Assembly (NCBI RefSeq): GCF_003814705.1
Contig: NZ_RKRA01000001.1
Coordinates: forward strand, 2,666,001-2,730,000
From: Georgenia muralis
GTDB taxonomy: Bacteria > Actinomycetota > Actinomycetes > Actinomycetales > Actinomycetaceae
Reading direction: 5' to 3'
DNA: 64,000 nucleotides
Shown: positions 8,022 through 50,467 of the stretch, one piece after another
Layout of the letters: the number at the start of each line of letters is the position of its first letter
Numbering within the stretch: the stretch's first letter is position 1
Notes under the pieces: generated by a model
What the model saw: the letters and a program-made list of their open reading frames with translations, nothing else
The model's database searches: none
Told to the model about the DNA's origin: nothing
Made by a program: the position numbers and the translations under genes

Positions 8022-8059
8022 CGACGAAGCCCGCGGCCTGATGGCCGCGGGCTTCGTCG
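8022..8059 (+). terminator. strong terminator hairpin after DUF3040 gene
   Basis: A perfect 17-bp inverted repeat: left arm 8022-8038, loop TGAT, right arm 8043-8059. There is no T-tract, which is usual for terminators in high-GC actinobacteria. It starts 12 bases after the stop codon. Confidence 0.85.
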
Positions 8060-24091: not shown

Positions 24092-24864
24092 GCCCGGCAG
24101 GAGTGCTCCCGCTCCTGCCCGCGAGTCTTGGCCCCGGCGCGCGTGGTGCTTTCACCACGCGCGCCGGTGGCGTCTCCACCGGGCCCTTCGGCGCCGCCGG
24201 CGGGGCCGGCGGTCTCGACCTGGCCGTGCACGTCGGTGATGACCCCCACCGGGTGGCCCGCAACCGGGAGCGGCTCGCCGCGAGCCTGGGGGTGGCGGTG
24301 TCGTGGATGGACCAGGTCCACGGCACCGACGTCGCCGTCGTGGAGACGCCCGGGGGCGCGGACCTCGGCCGGTGCGACGGCGCCGTGGCCGTGCGTCACG
24401 ACCGCGCCCTGGCCGTGGGCGTCCTCGTGGCCGACTGCGTGCCCGTCCTGCTCGCGGCCCGCTCCGGCGACGTCGTGGCCGCGGTGCACGTGGGCCGCCG
24501 CGGTCTCGTGGCGGGCGTCCTCGAGGCCACCCTGACGGCCGTGGCGGCGCGAGGCGTCGACACCGCGGACCTGTTCGCCGCCGTCGGCCCCGCGGTGTGC
24601 GGGCGCTGCTACGAGGTGCCTGCGCCCATGCGCGAGGAGGTGGCCGACGTCGTCCCCGGCACCGCCTCCACCACCTCGTGGGGGACCCCGGCGCTCGACG
24701 TCCCGGCGGGCGTGCGGGGCCGGCTGGTCGCCGCCGGGGTGCGTGCCGTGGACCACGTCGACGCGTGCACGCTCGAGGACGAGCGGTTCTACTCCTACCG
24801 CCGGGCGGGCCGCGACGGCACGACCGTCACCGGCCGGTTCGCGGGAGTGGTCCGCACCCGCTGA
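24088..24864 (+). CDS. pgeF: peptidoglycan editing factor PgeF (laccase-domain/DUF152)
   Basis: A 258-residue protein of the PgeF/YlmD family, once annotated as multicopper polyphenol oxidase; in other bacteria PgeF is linked to keeping wrong residues (L-Ser) out of peptidoglycan precursors. Family residues visible: QVHGTDV (His), [12 protein letters not shown] (Cys), [14 protein letters not shown] (His) and [13 protein letters not shown]. The usual HAGWRG reads HVGRRG here, a change seen in actinobacteria. GTG 24088 overlaps the ftsZ stop. A YggS-type gene often found next is missing. Confidence 0.88.
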
Positions 24865-43271: not shown

Positions 43272-44801
43272 TCAGAGCCCGGCGAGCACCCGCACCGCCT
43301 CGAGGGTGTCGGCCTCCGCCGCCGGCTTGTCCTCGCGGTAGCGCAGCACCCGCGCGAACCGCAGCGCGACCCCGCCGGGGTAGCGGGGAGAGCGCTGGAC
43401 GCCGTCGAAGGCGATCTCGACCACCTGCTCGGGCCGCACGTGCACCACGTGGCCCTCGCGGTGGGTCTCCAGCGCGAGGAACCGTTCGGTCTGCCAGGCG
43501 AGCATCTCGTCCGTCATGCCCTTGAACGTCTTCCCGAGCATGACGAACCCGCCCGCACCGTCCGCGGCACCGAGGTGGATGTTCGACAGCGTGCCGCTCC
43601 GGCGGCCCGAGCCCCACTCGACGGCCAGCACGACGAGGTCCAGGGTGTGCCGCGGCTTGACCTTGACCCAGGCGGCACCGCGCCGCCCGGCCTCGTAGGG
43701 CGCGTCGAGGCTCTTGACGACGACGCCCTCGTGCCCGCCCGCGAGGGTCCGGGCGTAGAAGTCCGCGGCAGCGCCGGGGTCCTCCGTGAGGAGCCTGGGC
43801 ACGACCAGGTCACCGGGCGCCACCTCCCCGAGCGCGGCGAACCGGGTCCCGGCGGGCGTGTCGAGCAGGTCCTGGCCCGCGACGTGCAGGACGTCGAAGA
43901 AGACCGTCGTGACCGGCACCTGCTCACGCAGGGCCGTGACGTCGGCGCTGCTCATCGTCCGCGCCGCCGTCTCCTGGAAGGGGCGAGGCCGACCGTCGGC
44001 GAGCAGGGCGATCGCCTCGCCGTCGAGGACGAGGTCACCGCCGCCCAGCCCCCGGGTGGCCTCGACCACCTCGGGCAGCCGCGCGGTGATGTCGTCCAGG
44101 GACCTGGTGAACACGACGACCTCCCGCCCGCGTCTGTGCACCTGGATGCGGATGCCGTCGAGCTTGGCGTCCACCGCGACCTCCCCGCCGAGACGCTCGA
44201 GCGCCCCGGCCAGGTCGGGCGCGGCCGAGGCGAGCATGGGCCGCACCGGGGTGCCCACCGCGAGGGTGAACGCCGCGAGGGCGGCCTCCGCGCCGGTGAG
44301 GGCGGCGACGGCGACCGGTCCCGTCTCGCCGGAGAACATCGCCGCCCGGCGCACCGCCGCGAGCGGGACCGAGGCCGCCTCGGCGACGGCGTCGAGCATG
44401 AGCGAGTCCAGCGCGCCCTGGCGCAGCTCACCGAGGACGAGCAGCCGCAGGAACCGCTGCTCGGCGGGGGTCGCCCGGCCGAAGAGGTCGGCGACGGCCG
44501 CGGTCCGCCGGGCCTGGGACCCGCTGCCGGACAGCGCCGCGAGGGACTCCAGGGCGGCGTCGACCTCCGCGACCGTCAGGGTGGGGGCGTCCGCCGGTGC
44601 CGGCAGCGTCTCGAGCGAGTGCCACCCCAGCCCCGTGCGACGCTGGCGCACCGTCCCGGAGAGGTAGCCTGCGACGAGCGCCGCCTCGGGGCCGGCCTGG
44701 CGCAGCGCGTCGGCGAGGGCGTGGCGCTTGGCCAGGCGGGAACGTGTGGCGGCCACGGCCTGGGAGGCTGCGACCAGGTCGGCGAGGAGCATGGCGACCA
44801 T
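43272..44801 (-). CDS. ATP-dependent DNA ligase (LigB type)
   Basis: A 509-residue ATP-dependent DNA ligase. The adenylated lysine lies in VDAKLDGIRIQVHRRG near residue 205 (KxDGxR motif I); LDGEAIALLADGRPRPFQET, HEGVVVKSLDAPYEAGRRGA and WVKVKPRHTLDLV are motifs III-V. The N-terminal ~195 residues form the helical DNA-binding domain. These enzymes act in repair next to the NAD-dependent LigA. ATG 44801 is preferred (M at 44792 possible). Divergent from infC. Confidence 0.92.
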   Translation of the reverse strand: MVAMLLADLVAASQAVAATRSRLAKRHALADALRQAGPEAALVAGYLSGTVRQRRTGLGWHSLETLPAPADAPTLTVAEVDAALESLAALSGSGSQARRTAAVADLFGRATPAEQRFLRLLVLGELRQGALDSLMLDAVAEAASVPLAAVRRAAMFSGETGPVAVAALTGAEAALAAFTLAVGTPVRPMLASAAPDLAGALERLGGEVAVDAKLDGIRIQVHRRGREVVVFTRSLDDITARLPEVVEATRGLGGGDLVLDGEAIALLADGRPRPFQETAARTMSSADVTALREQVPVTTVFFDVLHVAGQDLLDTPAGTRFAALGEVAPGDLVVPRLLTEDPGAAADFYARTLAGGHEGVVVKSLDAPYEAGRRGAAWVKVKPRHTLDLVVLAVEWGSGRRSGTLSNIHLGAADGAGGFVMLGKTFKGMTDEMLAWQTERFLALETHREGHVVHVRPEQVVEIAFDGVQRSPRYPGGVALRFARVLRYREDKPAAEADTLEAVRVLAGL

Positions 44802-44860
44802 GGTCCTGCCGTGTGGCCCGGGCCACCACCGGGCGGCGGTGCCCGACGGGGCGTGCGTGC

Positions 44861-44866
44861 TAGTCT
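44861..44866 (+). promoter_or_regulatory. -10 box of infC operon
   Basis: TAGTCT, fitting TAnnnT. Transcription should begin near 44873, giving a leader of about 236 bases. The -35 region (around 44838) is weak. Confidence 0.5.
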
Positions 44867-44872
44867 TGTCCA

Positions 44873-45108
44873 CTGACCGACCAGGGCCTGTCCCTGGTGC
44901 GCAAGTGGAGATCCTCCCACCTGGGTGACGTCGGCCGCCGAGAGGCGGCCGCAGTGACCGGGTTCAGGTCGACGGGGCTGGTCCCCGTGTACCCGTGCGG
45001 CCCAGCGCTGCGGGGGTGACGACCTCTGTGGGCCTCCGCGTGCGCGAGCACGACGGAGGCCTTCTTCGTCTCGCGACGGTCACCGCGAACGAGGTAGAGG
45101 AGCACAGC
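44873..45108 (+). promoter_or_regulatory. structured infC leader with terminator-like hairpin
   Basis: The leader can form hairpins at 44881-44897 (CCAGGG/CCCTGG), 44932-44951 (CGGCCGCC/GGCGGCCG around a GAGA loop) and 45031-45061. The last has a 13-bp stem with one bulged A and a GCGA loop, followed by TTCTTC, and so looks like an intrinsic terminator 48 bases before infC. Transcript attenuation of IF3-L35-L20 operons is known in Bacillus (L20 control); here the mechanism is inferred from structure only. Confidence 0.6.
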
Positions 45109-45786
45109 ATCAGCGAGCCCCGCATCAACGAGCGGATCCGCGTGCCCGAGGTCCGGCTGGTCGGCCCCGGCGGCGAGCAGGTCGGTGTCGTCCGCGTCGA
45201 GGACGCCCTGCGGCTGGCCCAGGAGGCCGACCTCGACCTGGTCGAGGTCGCGCCCGACGCGCGCCCGCCCGTGGCCAAGCTCATGGACTACGGGAAGTTC
45301 AAGTACGAGTCCGCCATGAAGGCCCGTGACGCCCGCCGCAACCAGGCGAACACGGTCCTCAAGGAGATCCGGTTCCGCCTCAAGATCGACGCGCACGACT
45401 ACGCGACCAAGAAGGGTCACGTCGAGCGCTTCCTCACGGGCGGCGACAAGGTCAAGGTCATGATCATGTTCCGCGGCCGTGAGCAGTCCCGCCCCGAGAT
45501 GGGCATGCGGCTGCTCCAGCGGCTGGCCGAGGACGTCGCCGAGCTCGGCTCGGTCGAGTCCTCCCCGCGGCTGGACGGGCGCAACATGACCATGGTGATC
45601 GGCCCGCACAAGAAGAAGGCCGAGGCCAAGAGCGAGCAGCGCCGCAAGCGCGAGCAGGAGCAGGCGGCCAAGGACGCCGCCCCTGCGACCGCTGCGCCGG
45701 CCGCCCCCGAAGCGGCCGCCGAGCCGGCAGCCCCGACCGCCCCCGCGGCGGACGCGCCCGCCGACAGCGCCGCGGACGCCAGCTAG
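45109..45786 (+). CDS. infC: translation initiation factor IF-3
   Basis: A 225-residue IF-3. N-domain begins [20 protein letters not shown]; the linker and C-domain include [36 protein letters not shown] and [20 protein letters not shown]. An Ala/Pro-rich tail of ~40 residues follows. The best ribosome site is AGGAG at 45098-45102, six bases before ATC 45109, and homology begins exactly there. I therefore place the start at ATC, as IF-3 genes in other bacteria use AUU/AUC to sense IF-3 level. A GTG at 44995 is in frame but would place the terminator hairpin inside the gene. Confidence 0.9.
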
Positions 45787-45876
45787 CCCACATACCTGCA
45801 AAGACGTCCTGGCCCACCACCCGGGCCCAGGGCAGGACAGATCTGTGCCACCGGCGCAGTCGACCGAGGGACGAAC

Positions 45877-46071
45877 ATGCCGAAGAACAAGACGCACTCC
45901 GGTGCCAAGAAGCGCTTCCGGGTCACCGGCAGCGGGAAGCTCATGCGCGAGCAGGCCAACAAGCGCCACCTGCTCGAGCACAAGTCCTCCAAGCGCACCC
46001 GACGTCTCGCCCAGGACCAGGTGGTCTCCAGCGCCGACGTGAAGAAGATCAAGAAGCTGCTCGGCAAGTAA
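45877..46071 (+). CDS. rpmI: 50S ribosomal protein L35
   Basis: A 64-residue basic ribosomal protein. [20 protein letters not shown] and [17 protein letters not shown] are diagnostic. GAGGGACGAAC precedes the ATG. Second gene of infC-rpmI-rplT; the 90-base gap after infC holds a GTCCTG/CAGGAC inverted repeat that may be a processing site. Confidence 0.98.
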
Positions 46072-46096
46072 GCCGCCCCGAACGAAGGAGACTGAC

Positions 46097-46477
46097 GTGG
46101 CACGCGTCAAGCGGGCGGTCAACGCCCAGAAGAAGCGCCGCACGACCCTCGAGCGCGCCGCCGGTTACCGCGGCCAGCGCTCGCGGCTGTACCGCAAGGC
46201 CAAGGAGCAGGTCACCCACTCGATGACCTACGCCTACCGCGACCGGCGCGCCCGCAAGGGTGACTTCCGCCGGCTGTGGATCCAGCGCATCAACGCCGCG
46301 GTGCGCGCCGAGGGCATGACCTACAACCGCTTCGTCCAGGGCCTCAAGGCCGCGGGCGTCGAGGTCGACCGCCGCATGCTGGCCGAGCTGGCCGTGACCG
46401 ACATCGCCGCGTTCAACGCGCTCGTCGCCACCGCCCGCGCCGCCCTGCCCGCGGACGTCAACGCCCCGGCCGCCTGA
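46097..46477 (+). CDS. rplT: 50S ribosomal protein L20
   Basis: A 126-residue large-subunit protein that binds 23S rRNA early in assembly. [38 protein letters not shown] and [20 protein letters not shown] are typical. GAAGGAGA precedes the GTG... the start is GTG 46097 in GTGGCACGCGTC. L20 represses its own operon in other bacteria, which fits the structured leader before infC. Confidence 0.98.
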
Positions 46478-46507
46478 GCCGAGCGCACCCCGCACCGCGG
46501 GAGCGAC

Positions 46508-47398
46508 ATGACCGGACGCCCGGACACCCTGACCAACCCACGCGCTGAGCGCGTGCGAACGGTCAGGGCACTGTCCGGGCGTCCGGCGCGTCTGCGGTAC
46601 GGCCAGTTCCTCGTCGAGGGCCCCCAGGGCGTGCGCGAGCTCGTCCGGCACCGTCGCGACCAGGTGCGCGACCTCTACCTCACCGAGGACGCCGCAGGGC
46701 GCCACCCCGAGATCGTCGACGACGCCGCCGGCCTCCACCTGCACCTGGCCACGGCCGAGGTGCTCACCGCGATGAGCCCGGACGCCCAGGGCGTCCTCGC
46801 TGTCGCCCGCGCCCTCGACCCCGCGCCCACCGTCGACGACCTGCTGACCGGCGCGCCGCCCCGCCTCGTCGCGCTCCTCGTCCGGGCCGCGGACCCCGGC
46901 AACGCCGGCACCGTCGTCCGGGCCGCGGACGCCGCCGGCGCCGACGCCGTCCTGCTCGGCACCGGCAGCGTCGAGGTGCACAACCCCAAGGTCGTCCGCG
47001 CCACGGCCGGCTCGCTCTTCCACCTGCCGGTCGTCCCCGGCTCGGACGTCGAGGCGGCCGTGGCCGCCCTCCGCGGTGCCGGGCTGCAGGTGCTCGCCGC
47101 CGACGGCGCGGGGGAGTGGGACCTCGACGAGCTGGCCGACCGGGCCGCCGCCGAGGCCTACGGCTGCTCCCCGTGGGAGGCCGACGAGCTGAGCGCGACC
47201 GGGCTCGTCGCCCCCGACCTGGCCGCCCCGACCGTCTGGCTGCTGGGCAACGAGGCCCACGGCCTCACGGCTGCCGAGCGCGAGCTGTGCGACGCCGGCG
47301 TGCGCGTGCCCATCCACGGCCGTGCGGAGTCCCTCAACGTCGCCACCGCCGCGACGGTGTGCCTGTACGCCTCGGCCCGCGCGCAGCGCCGCGCCTGA
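46508..47398 (+). CDS. TrmH/SpoU-family rRNA 2'-O-methyltransferase
   Basis: A 296-residue SPOUT methyltransferase. N-terminal substrate-binding domain (GQFLVEGPQGVRELVRHRRD), then the knotted SAM domain: LLVRAADPGNAGTVVRAADA, GSVEVHNPKVVRATAGSLFH, TVWLLGNEAHGLTAAE and RVPIHGRAESLNVATAATVC. Related enzymes methylate 23S rRNA (TsnR type). ATG 46508 has GGGAG upstream. Oddity: codons 2-27 form a very large hairpin (46512-46586). Common neighbour of rplT in actinobacteria. Confidence 0.92.
   Translation: MTGRPDTLTNPRAERVRTVRALSGRPARLRYGQFLVEGPQGVRELVRHRRDQVRDLYLTEDAAGRHPEIVDDAAGLHLHLATAEVLTAMSPDAQGVLAVARALDPAPTVDDLLTGAPPRLVALLVRAADPGNAGTVVRAADAAGADAVLLGTGSVEVHNPKVVRATAGSLFHLPVVPGSDVEAAVAALRGAGLQVLAADGAGEWDLDELADRAAAEAYGCSPWEADELSATGLVAPDLAAPTVWLLGNEAHGLTAAERELCDAGVRVPIHGRAESLNVATAATVCLYASARAQRRA
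46512..46586 (+). repeat. 75-base hairpin in the 5' end of the rRNA methyltransferase gene
   Basis: Outer arms: CCGGACGCCCGGACA (46512-46526) pairs perfectly with 46572-46586; next CCCTGACC (46527-46534) pairs with GGTCAGGG (46561-46568) after a three-base bulge; inside, CACGCGC (46539-46545) pairs with GCGCGTG (46549-46555). Thirty base pairs in all, starting one base after the start codon. It could end rplT transcripts, hide the start codon region, or be a processing site. Confidence 0.75.
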
Positions 47399-47472
47399 GT
47401 GCCCCACGCCTGCCCGGCCGAGGTGTGCGCACCGACGGCCCGACCAGCCTTCCGCCGCCGGGAGCGCGGGAC

Positions 47473-47503
47473 TAGCGTGACCCGCCGGAGGGGTTCTCCG
47501 GCG
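47473..47503 (+). promoter_or_regulatory. promoter and 5'-UTR hairpin of VOC gene
   Basis: TAGCGT at 47473-47478 is a likely -10. The start of the transcript then folds into CGCCGGAG-GGGTT-CTCCGGCG (47483-47503), directly before the ribosome site GGGAGGAAT. Confidence 0.5.
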
Positions 47504-47516
47504 AACGGGAGGAATC

Positions 47517-47903
47517 ATGAGCGGCCGCGTCGTGCACTTCGAGATGCCCTACGACGACAAGGACCGGGCCACGGCCTTCTACCGTGGGGCCTTCGGCTGG
47601 CGGGTCGAGGAGATGCCGGGCTTCGACTACAGCTTCGTCACCACCGGACCGGCCGGGAGCGACGGCGCCGCGTCCGAGCCGGGGTACATCGGCGGGGGGA
47701 TGACCCCCCGCGAGGATCCCGTCACCGGCCCCGTCATCACCATCGACACCGACGACGTCACCGCCGCGCTCGAGCGGGTGGTGGAGCTCGGCGGGTCGGT
47801 GGTCCAGGAGCGCACCCCGGTGGGGGACATGGGCTTCACCGGGTACTTCCGCGACACCGAGGGCACCGTGGTCGGGCTGTGGGAGAGCGCCCCGCCCGCC
47901 TGA
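47517..47903 (+). CDS. VOC-superfamily protein (glyoxalase/bleomycin-resistance fold)
   Basis: A 128-residue vicinal-oxygen-chelate protein. VVHFEMPYDDKDRATAFYRG and AFGWRVEEMPGFDYSFV start the first half; YFRDTEGTVVGLWES ends the second with the metal-ligand Glu region. Looks like the CFP32/27-kDa antigen-like single-domain group. Substrate unknown. GGGAGGAATC stands before the ATG. Convergent with the CBS gene, 20 bases apart. Confidence 0.85.
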   Translation: MSGRVVHFEMPYDDKDRATAFYRGAFGWRVEEMPGFDYSFVTTGPAGSDGAASEPGYIGGGMTPREDPVTGPVITIDTDDVTAALERVVELGGSVVQERTPVGDMGFTGYFRDTEGTVVGLWESAPPA

Positions 47904-47923
47904 CCTCAGCGGTGGGGTGGTGC

Positions 47924-48358
47924 TCAGCCGCCACCCTGGACGTAGTCGACGAGGCTGTCACGCTCGTCCTGGAGCTCGCCCAGCCGCTGCTTGACGACGT
48001 CGCCGATGCTCACGATCCCCACCAGGCGGCCGTCCGCGACCACCGGCAGGTGGCGCACCCGCCGCTCGGTCATCGTCCGCGCCAGCGTCTCGAGGTCGTC
48101 GTCGAGGCGACAGGTGGCGACCTCGGTGGTCATGATCGTCCCGACCGGCACGGCCGGGAGGGGCTCGGTCGACCCGCGCAGGTGCCGCACGACGTCCCGC
48201 TCGGAGACGATGCCGTCGACCGTCCCGTCGGCGTCGGAGACGACCACCGCCCCGATGCCGCGGTCGGCGAGCAGGTCGAGCAGCTCCGCCACGGAGGCGT
48301 CGCTGCGGATGGTGACGACGTCGTCGCCCTTGCGCCTGAGCACGTCGGAGATGCGCAT
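47924..48358 (-). CDS. CBS-domain pair protein
   Basis: A 144-residue protein made of two CBS motifs: MRISDVLRRKGDDVVTIRSD ... IVSERDVVRHLRG, then VGTIMTTEVATCRLDDDLET ... LVGIVSIGDVVKQRLGEL. Stand-alone CBS pairs bind adenine nucleotides such as AMP, ATP or NAD and act as energy sensors (family knowledge). The partner is unknown. Divergent from the following small gene. Confidence 0.88.
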   Translation of the reverse strand: MRISDVLRRKGDDVVTIRSDASVAELLDLLADRGIGAVVVSDADGTVDGIVSERDVVRHLRGSTEPLPAVPVGTIMTTEVATCRLDDDLETLARTMTERRVRHLPVVADGRLVGIVSIGDVVKQRLGELQDERDSLVDYVQGGG

Positions 48359-48464
48359 GCTCGACCGTACTGCCGGCAGCGGCCCCCGGGCCAGGTTCCC
48401 GCCCGCGGGTGTGCGGGCTCTTGACCGGGCGCCGGGCCGGGCACATGCTCAGGAGGTGACCGTG

Positions 48465-48713
48465 GTGCCGATGCCGCCCCGCTCGCGCTGGTTCGCCGAC
48501 CCGCGCGGCCACGGGCGCGGGCTGCGGGTCACCGCGCACCCCGAGACCGGGATGGTCGTGCTCAGCCTGTGGCGGGCGGACGAGTGCGTCGCCACCGTGC
48601 GGCTCACCCCCGCGGAGGCCGCCGGTCTCGTCGGCGCCCTCGGCGCCGGCTTGGCGGACCTCGCCGGGACCGGCGCGGCGGAGGTGACGACCGACCGCGC
48701 CGCCGGCGGATGA
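48465..48713 (+). CDS. small conserved actinobacterial protein
   Basis: An 82-residue protein, family not named. The core WFADPRGHGRGLRVTAHPET followed by GMVVLSLWRADECVATVRLT looks like a small beta-rich domain found widely in actinobacteria as a hypothetical protein. A perfect AGGAGG at 48451-48456 precedes clustered GTGs at 48462 and 48465; 48465 gives the best spacing. Its stop overlaps thpR (ATGA), so the two are co-translated. Confidence 0.7.
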   Translation: MPMPPRSRWFADPRGHGRGLRVTAHPETGMVVLSLWRADECVATVRLTPAEAAGLVGALGAGLADLAGTGAAEVTTDRAAGG

Positions 48714-49312
48714 GGCTCTTCGTCGCCCTCGCGCTGCCGCCGCAGGTGCAGGAGCACCTGGACCTCGCCGTCGCCGCGGTCGGCGACGACGAGCCGGCCG
48801 GCCGGGGCGCGCCCACCCTGCGCTGGGTGGCGCCGGGCCTGCGGCACATCACCCTGGCCTTCTACGGCGAGGTGCCCGGCGGCGCCGTTCCCGACCTCAC
48901 CGCCGACCTCGCCGCCGTCGCGGCCGCCCACGGGCCCCTGCGGCTCCAGGTGCGCGGCGCCGGCGTCTTCGCCGGACGGACGCTGTGGGCGGGCGTGCGG
49001 GAGGTGGACCCCCCCGGGGGGGCCCTGGTGCGGCTCATGACCGACTGCGAGGACCTGCTCCACCCCGACGCCGCCCGACGCGAGCGCCACCGCGCGCACG
49101 TCACCCTCGCCCGGGCGCGCCGCCCCGACGCGGCCGGGCTGGACCGGCGCGCGCAGGTCCTGTCCGTCTACTCCGGGCCGACCTGGCTCGCCGAGGACGT
49201 GGAGCTGCTCGCCTCCGAGCTGGGCGCCGGCAAGGGCGGGGCGCCGGTGCACGAGGTCCTCGCCCGGCTCCCGCTCGGCGGACCCGCCCCTGCCGCCGGC
49301 TTTCCGGACCAC

Positions 49313-49315
<3 letters not shown>
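48710..49315 (+). CDS. thpR: RNA 2',3'-cyclic phosphodiesterase (2'-5' RNA ligase family)
   Basis: A 201-residue 2H phosphoesterase. Both catalytic HxTx motifs are present: RHITLAFYGEV near residue 43 and RAHVTLARARR near residue 127. These enzymes open 2',3'-cyclic phosphates and can join tRNA halves in vitro. ATG 48710 overlaps the preceding small gene by four bases. A TAGACT promoter for pheS begins just at its end. Confidence 0.9.

Positions 49316-50467
<1,152 letters not shown>

Follow-up and report, generated by a model that had tools for sequence, protein, structure and literature searches.

The first codons of a 2'-O-methyltransferase gene that follows infC-rpmI-rplT form a long hairpin which is a conserved structured RNA: among relatives, its pairing is kept by compensating changes beyond those seen in shuffled and slid controls. 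The presence of the hairpin within the gene is strongly associated with close linkage to rplT. We read it as an operon-junction attenuator, a conserved sense-strand hairpin at the rplT/methyltransferase junction, and give this reading a probability of roughly 0.54.

A long hairpin in the first codons of the methyltransferase gene

The window is the whole stretch of DNA that was analyzed, 64 kb in length. In it, infC (which we take to be this gene from its sequence and position), rpmI and rplT are followed on the same strand, 30 nt past the rplT stop codon, by the methyltransferase gene. The closest named relatives were Georgenia species, with 65 to 66% identity in the best segment. The features of the junction are as follows.

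45877..46071, + strand: rpmI (L35; PF01632/TIGR00001)
46097..46477, + strand: rplT (L20; PF00453/TIGR01032); 34 nt from its stop codon to the stem
46499..46510, + strand: putative ribosome-binding site and ATG start, immediately 5' of the stem (from sequence and open reading frame)
46508..47398, + strand: SpoU/TrmH 2'-O-methyltransferase gene of the RlmP/RlmR type (PF00588), with its ATG at 46508
46512..46526, + strand: 5' arm of the outer stem, perfect over 15 bp, within codons T-G-R-P-D-T (residues 2 to 7); pairing conserved with covariation
46527..46534, + strand: 5' arm of the middle 8-bp stem, CCCTGACC (from the fold)
46538..46557, + strand: apical 8-bp hairpin (from the fold), mostly within the conserved coding motif NPRAERV
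46561..46568, + strand: 3' arm of the middle stem, GGTCAGGG (from the fold); 46569 to 46571 are bulged
46572..46586, + strand: 3' arm of the outer stem, within codons L-S-G-R-P-A; paired codon choices in relatives
46589..46591, + strand: Arg codon CGT just 3' of the conserved stem; this choice accompanies the hairpin in relatives

Upstream, infC has no ATG or GTG beside its N-terminal motif (45098 to 45111), and an ATC at 45109, after AGGAG, resembles a start codon; non-AUG starts (AUU/AUC) of infC occur in E. coli. The infC leader (45030 to 45068) contains a hairpin, GGGCCTCCGCG...CGGAGGCC, followed by TTCTTCGT (z = −4.57), a candidate leader attenuator for which Rfam gave no match. Downstream, positions 47517 to 49388 lie between the methyltransferase gene and a pheS-like gene and hold what we take, from the appearance of the sequence, to be a glyoxalase-like gene and a minus-strand CBS-like gene.

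Profile searches of the methyltransferase yielded PF00588 (E = 3e-32) and PF08032 (above its cutoff), as well as a match to PF22435 that had an E value of 2e-5 but fell below its cutoff (25.3 versus 27 bits). The protein combines a SpoU methylase domain with an MRM3-like/L30-like substrate-binding domain, the combination that defines RlmP-type SPOUT enzymes. Compared by sequence similarity, its best solved relatives were B. subtilis RlmP (7qiu; E = 5.6e-24) and, with an almost equal score, RlmR (9h1k/4x3l). According to PMC12123411, RlmP (YsgA) and RlmR are A-loop 2'-O-methyltransferases acting at Gm2553 and Um2552, respectively; the A-loop of 23S rRNA is a plausible target of the enzyme encoded here.

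The two arms of the outer stem (46512 to 46526 and 46572 to 46586) are complementary at 15 of 15 positions and are separated by 45 nt; the stem begins one base past the ATG, and the hairpin as a whole spans nt 5 to 79 of the coding region. Folded alone, positions 46511 to 46587 formed 31 pairs (15 + 8 + 8) at −62.5 kcal/mol, close to the thirty base pairs that a sequence-only reading of this DNA had described, along with a perfect 15-bp outer stem one base after the ATG. Dinucleotide shuffles of the same positions reached −31.5 ± 3.4 kcal/mol (z = −9.07; 0 of 200 as good), and in its 141-nt context the hairpin had a z score of −6.73. Perfect stems of at least 15 bp with a loop of at most 60 nt are rare in this genome, with 3 in the window, this hairpin included, and 6 in a further sample of 400 kb; by the same criterion, five Markov-shuffled windows contained 1, 0, 0, 0 and 0. 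The other two such stems in the window lie at 8022 to 8059 and 24134 to 24167, the former resembling an ordinary U-poor terminator (GGGCTTCGTCGT). No mobile palindrome or second copy was found when the genome itself was searched with the DNA of the 141-nt stretch, the other match being the palindrome against its own complement.

Synonymous codons are chosen for folding

Synonymous-codon shuffling, which fixes both the protein and the codon usage, asks whether the codons in use fold more stably than they have to. With 60 shuffles, the gene of this genome (L003) had z = −4.4, and other settings gave −5.1 and −4.6. Since shuffles with the protein fixed still yield −4.4, the hairpin is not a coding coincidence.

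For relatives, 183 loci with a methyltransferase match were taken, of which 13 lacked the anchor motif, so that 170 were scored (130 close to rplT and 40 not). A z score below −2 was found for 91 of these 170 orthologous gene starts. Scored at the end, 11 of the 13 dropped loci comprised 3 close ones (z from −1.1 to +0.2) and 8 that were not close, L069 and L073 among them; no score was obtainable for L208 and L218. Four close loci were identical duplicates, leaving 126 unique ones, and the duplicate genomes L033, L035 and L043 are part of the 170-locus count but not of the tree pairs or of the either/or count given below. The sample was drawn up without 17 distant relatives (L044 to L060), matches to other methyltransferase genes (L012 to L032) and some matches without a locus.

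A core set of 70 sequences was picked by the amino acid motifs [EG]R[PL] upstream and [GR]R[SP] downstream, a few of its upstream calls being probably wrong, as the distances to the rplT stop codon include a value below zero. Among the 62 core loci that scored z < −2, the in-stem Arg was encoded by CGT 33 times and by CGC 28 times, CGT making up 8% elsewhere in the same genes. The Gly codon before it was GGG in 65 of 65 hairpin loci and in most of the few controls (3 of 3 and 1 of 2); the Ser codon after it was TCN in 60 of 60 hairpin loci versus 11 of 16 displaced loci.

Pairing is maintained by compensating changes, including amino acid changes

The diagnostic pair joins the second base of an upstream E/G codon to the first base of a downstream S/P codon. 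In the 62 sequences, from 12 families, with E/G-R-P on the upstream side and a motif on the downstream side, this pair was A-U in 30, G-C in 17, G-U in 15 and A-C in none (Fisher p = 9e-7); the wider 70-sequence set contained one A-C. At the protein level, upstream ERP was accompanied in the 62 sequences by downstream GRS and never by GRP, and upstream GRP was accompanied by GRP or, via G-U, by GRS. That G-U is tolerated and A-C avoided indicates an RNA of the sense strand.

Core-set members with equal arm spacing could be aligned without gaps and comprised 35 sequences, 34 of them distinct, that represent ten families. In this alignment, 92.2% of 476 cells paired, versus 30 to 50% when the partner was slid by 1 to 3 columns; 8 of the 14 pairs changed on both sides and 4 never varied, and the covariation score was 0.356 versus 0.156 after shuffling (0 of 500 as high), all of these covariation counts, like the others reported here, being inflated by relatedness among the sequences. 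For the 70 sequences, 91.9% of 980 cells paired, versus 32 to 48% with the partner slid. RNAalifold on its own recovered the 11 pairs at the base, with double changes in 6, and did not find the inner stems; the conservation is therefore that of the basal stem. Compensating changes, for which the sequence-only reading had proposed to search an alignment of relatives, were found at synonymous and nonsynonymous sites alike.

An alignment-free test with 126 genomes gave a mean of −62.9 kcal/mol for a genome's own arms versus −53.6 kcal/mol for arms taken from different genomes. Depending on the arm, the own partner ranked among the best 10% in 75 and 67 of the 126 genomes and came first in 14 and 15. 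A tree of 166 rows implied at least 17 changes on one side of the diagnostic pair and at least 10 on the other; independent tree pairs on supported branches pointed in the same direction, in numbers too small for significance. Across the class, in a sample biased toward better matches, representatives from outside the order were mixed with respect to the hairpin.

The in-gene hairpin depends on gene order

Loci were called close if the rplT stop codon lay 90 to 215 nt before the anchor codon, the 215-nt cut having been chosen when distances and first scores were known. By this definition, z was below −2 in 91 of 130 close loci (split into two bins by distance, these had medians of −3.1 and −2.6) and in 0 of 40 loci with a larger distance or with no rplT found upstream (medians of 0.5 to 1.1; Mann-Whitney p = 1.3e-16). 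With the 11 rescued loci, the totals were 91 of 133 close loci versus 2 of 48 others (Fisher p = 9e-16).

Two loci from one genus, L069 and L073, have an in-gene hairpin (z = −2.2 and −4.4) with no rplT found upstream. It is compact (20 bp) and occupies the same place with another sequence, at ∼47% G+C there, and is possibly convergent. The methyltransferase start overlaps the end of the upstream gene, which in L073 encodes dTDP-4-dehydrorhamnose 3,5-epimerase. Since the hairpin stands behind a gene other than rplT in both loci, the element is not strictly rplT's, and the hairpin may go with tight coupling to whatever gene lies upstream, not with rplT as such.

Within one family (f8), three loci close to rplT carried the hairpin (L097, L100 and L103; z = −3.3, −5.0 and −6.5), and two at ∼1 kb from rplT were without it (L101 and L102; z = +3.9 and +1.9). 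Two further close members, L094 and L095, reached only −1.5 and −0.3, although L095 has a larger hairpin that extends past the stretch scored. When either position was considered, the in-gene hairpin was present in 87 of 126 close loci versus 0 of 24 displaced loci with rplT in view, and a strong intergenic hairpin no more than 130 nt from rplT in 22 of 24 displaced versus 20 of 126 close loci, a contrast somewhat favored by the shorter intergenic stretch tested in close loci. Neither hairpin reached z < −2 in 30 of 126 close loci (32 of 150 overall). On supported independent branches of the tree, from which L069 and L073 are absent, 6 pairs gave on average 2.4 with the linkage, 0 against it and 3.6 without a difference, which is not significant.

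Terminator features and a proposed role at the operon junction

The hairpin shares the GC-rich stem-loop of canonical intrinsic terminators. It does not have their U-tract, with 3 T in the 12 nt past the stem in the window, and is therefore not filed as a canonical terminator. The mean number of T in these 12 nt was 1.9 in the 70 relatives and 2.5 for displaced intergenic hairpins, the latter measured more crudely. A terminator scan of the + strand called none, although its loop limit of 3 to 8 may hide the hairpin. A scan of 44800 to 47600 for sigma-70-like promoters found 0 and says little, because 0.0 were expected; and none of the 4227 families of Rfam release 15 matched 44500 to 47600 at E values up to 1. 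The suggestion of the sequence-only reading that the terminator of infC-rpmI-rplT had been placed inside the next gene fits a hairpin that is in-gene when the genes are close and mostly intergenic when they are not; it fits less well with L069 and L073, where the hairpin follows another gene, and with the lack of a canonical U-tract.

For the junction attenuator, we infer that the methyltransferase gene is probably cotranscribed with rplT, that termination or processing takes place at the hairpin and that the enzyme level is lowered. The hairpin would form in the infC-rpmI-rplT transcript shortly after departure of the last rplT ribosome, and many transcripts would end or be shortened there, either by partial termination or by trimming or processing up to the stem. 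The rplT message would gain a protected 3' end, which the hairpin may define. Read-through RNA would be translated less, because the stem would cover the landing zone of the next ribosome. One transcript could thereby serve abundant L35/L20 and a scarce modifying enzyme, and wherever the methyltransferase gene is pressed against the upstream gene, a hairpin in its first codons would lower its output.

In clostridia, according to PMC9045158, the ratios between genes are set by internal terminators whose stems are long and GC-rich and which have fewer U. The ABC transporter operons of cellulolytic clostridia treated there resemble the present junction in having a long GC-rich stem with low U between a gene of high need and one of rare need (the rare need for the methyltransferase being our supposition); those terminators are described as intergenic, whereas here the stem consists of the first codons of the downstream gene, the coding sequence covaries, and termination is a prediction. 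In E. coli, a terminator can be efficient even when it lies within the first 100 bp of a coding region, according to PMC4824070. The likeness is a hairpin early in the coding region; the difference is that tR2, studied there, is Rho-independent, whereas the present hairpin is without a U-tract.

Alternative explanations

Alternatively, the hairpin might be a purely translational brake: the transcript would continue, the stem over the start would block ribosomes, the enzyme would be rare wherever its gene is tightly coupled to an upstream one, and a gene moved behind its own promoter would not need the brake. The stem does abut or cover the start region: when the nearest ATG/GTG/TTG at or before codon −29 was taken as the start, a crude rule, it preceded the upstream arm in 32 of 66 relatives and fell within or past that arm in 34 of 66. 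In a longer fold, bases near the putative ribosome-binding site are paired as well, and the hairpin of L069 and L073 behind a different, overlapping gene fits the brake at least as well. However, a brake on its own accounts neither for the strong hairpin that 22 of 24 displaced loci retain behind rplT, though ordinary terminators would be expected there, nor for the conserved CGU past the stem, and we regard it as rather unlikely.

This CGU lies 3 to 5 nt past the stem. CGT was the Arg codon there in 71 of 87 loci with the hairpin, in 3 of 20 close loci that lack it and in 4 of 40 displaced loci. By eye, no conserved partner for it was seen in the base table; in the 141-nt fold of this genome, its U pairs upstream. 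A more far-reaching version of our account, which we hold with little confidence, would make the CGU a recognition or cleavage site of a regulated junction switch. The pairing element would then be order-wide and undescribed, base pairing would dictate the N-terminal residues (ERPD/GRSAR versus GRPD/GRPAR), and enzyme output would be tied to the flow of L20/L35 mRNA.

Improbable, in our estimate, is a regulated switch in which a bound protein (the methyltransferase, L20 or another) adjusts read-through or translation. The CGU frequency, far beyond codon usage (8% CGT among background Arg codons), speaks for it, as does autogenous L20 control of infC operons, known in B. subtilis. Against it stand the lack of an Rfam match at E values up to 1, the rarity of the element under other gene orders, and loop codons that vary mostly like ordinary ones. 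Sequence-specific recognition of the loop was rejected on this last account, the only preference there being for CGG and GTG. The idea, put forward in the sequence-only reading, of a switch sensing rRNA or L20 levels found no support, given the missing Rfam match and the dependence on gene order. The L20 leader of infC-rpmI-rplT (Rfam L20_leader) belongs to Firmicutes; it concerns the same operon and is likewise a structured RNA, but the present hairpin is on the 3' side and has no Rfam match.

A DNA-level element, such as a cruciform or a site for a DNA-binding protein, would suit the perfectly palindromic arms, but is very improbable, since G-U (15) and A-C (0 of 62) would be equivalent for a double-stranded DNA palindrome. 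Just as improbable is that conserved peptides are self-complementary by accident in a GC-rich genome: one arm does lie within a conserved peptide (GRxAR), and GC-rich codons pair readily, but the synonymous shuffles in this gene and in the close loci, the extension of covariation to amino acid changes and the CGT excess within the stem all argue against it.

An RNA structure that shaped a protein

No earlier description of the hairpin was found in the titles and abstract openings of the literature searched. Attenuator hairpins within operons are known, but to our knowledge one spelled by the opening codons of the following gene, with order-wide amino acid covariation, is a new variant. Residues of the enzyme covary across the order because their codons pair, so that this is a clear case, in a housekeeping enzyme, of an RNA structure having written part of a protein. 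Protein-based tools would take the recurrent N-terminal TERPD/TGRPD for a peptide motif. By this evidence, actinobacteria with GC-rich genomes may place the punctuation of their operons inside coding sequence, where annotation misses it.
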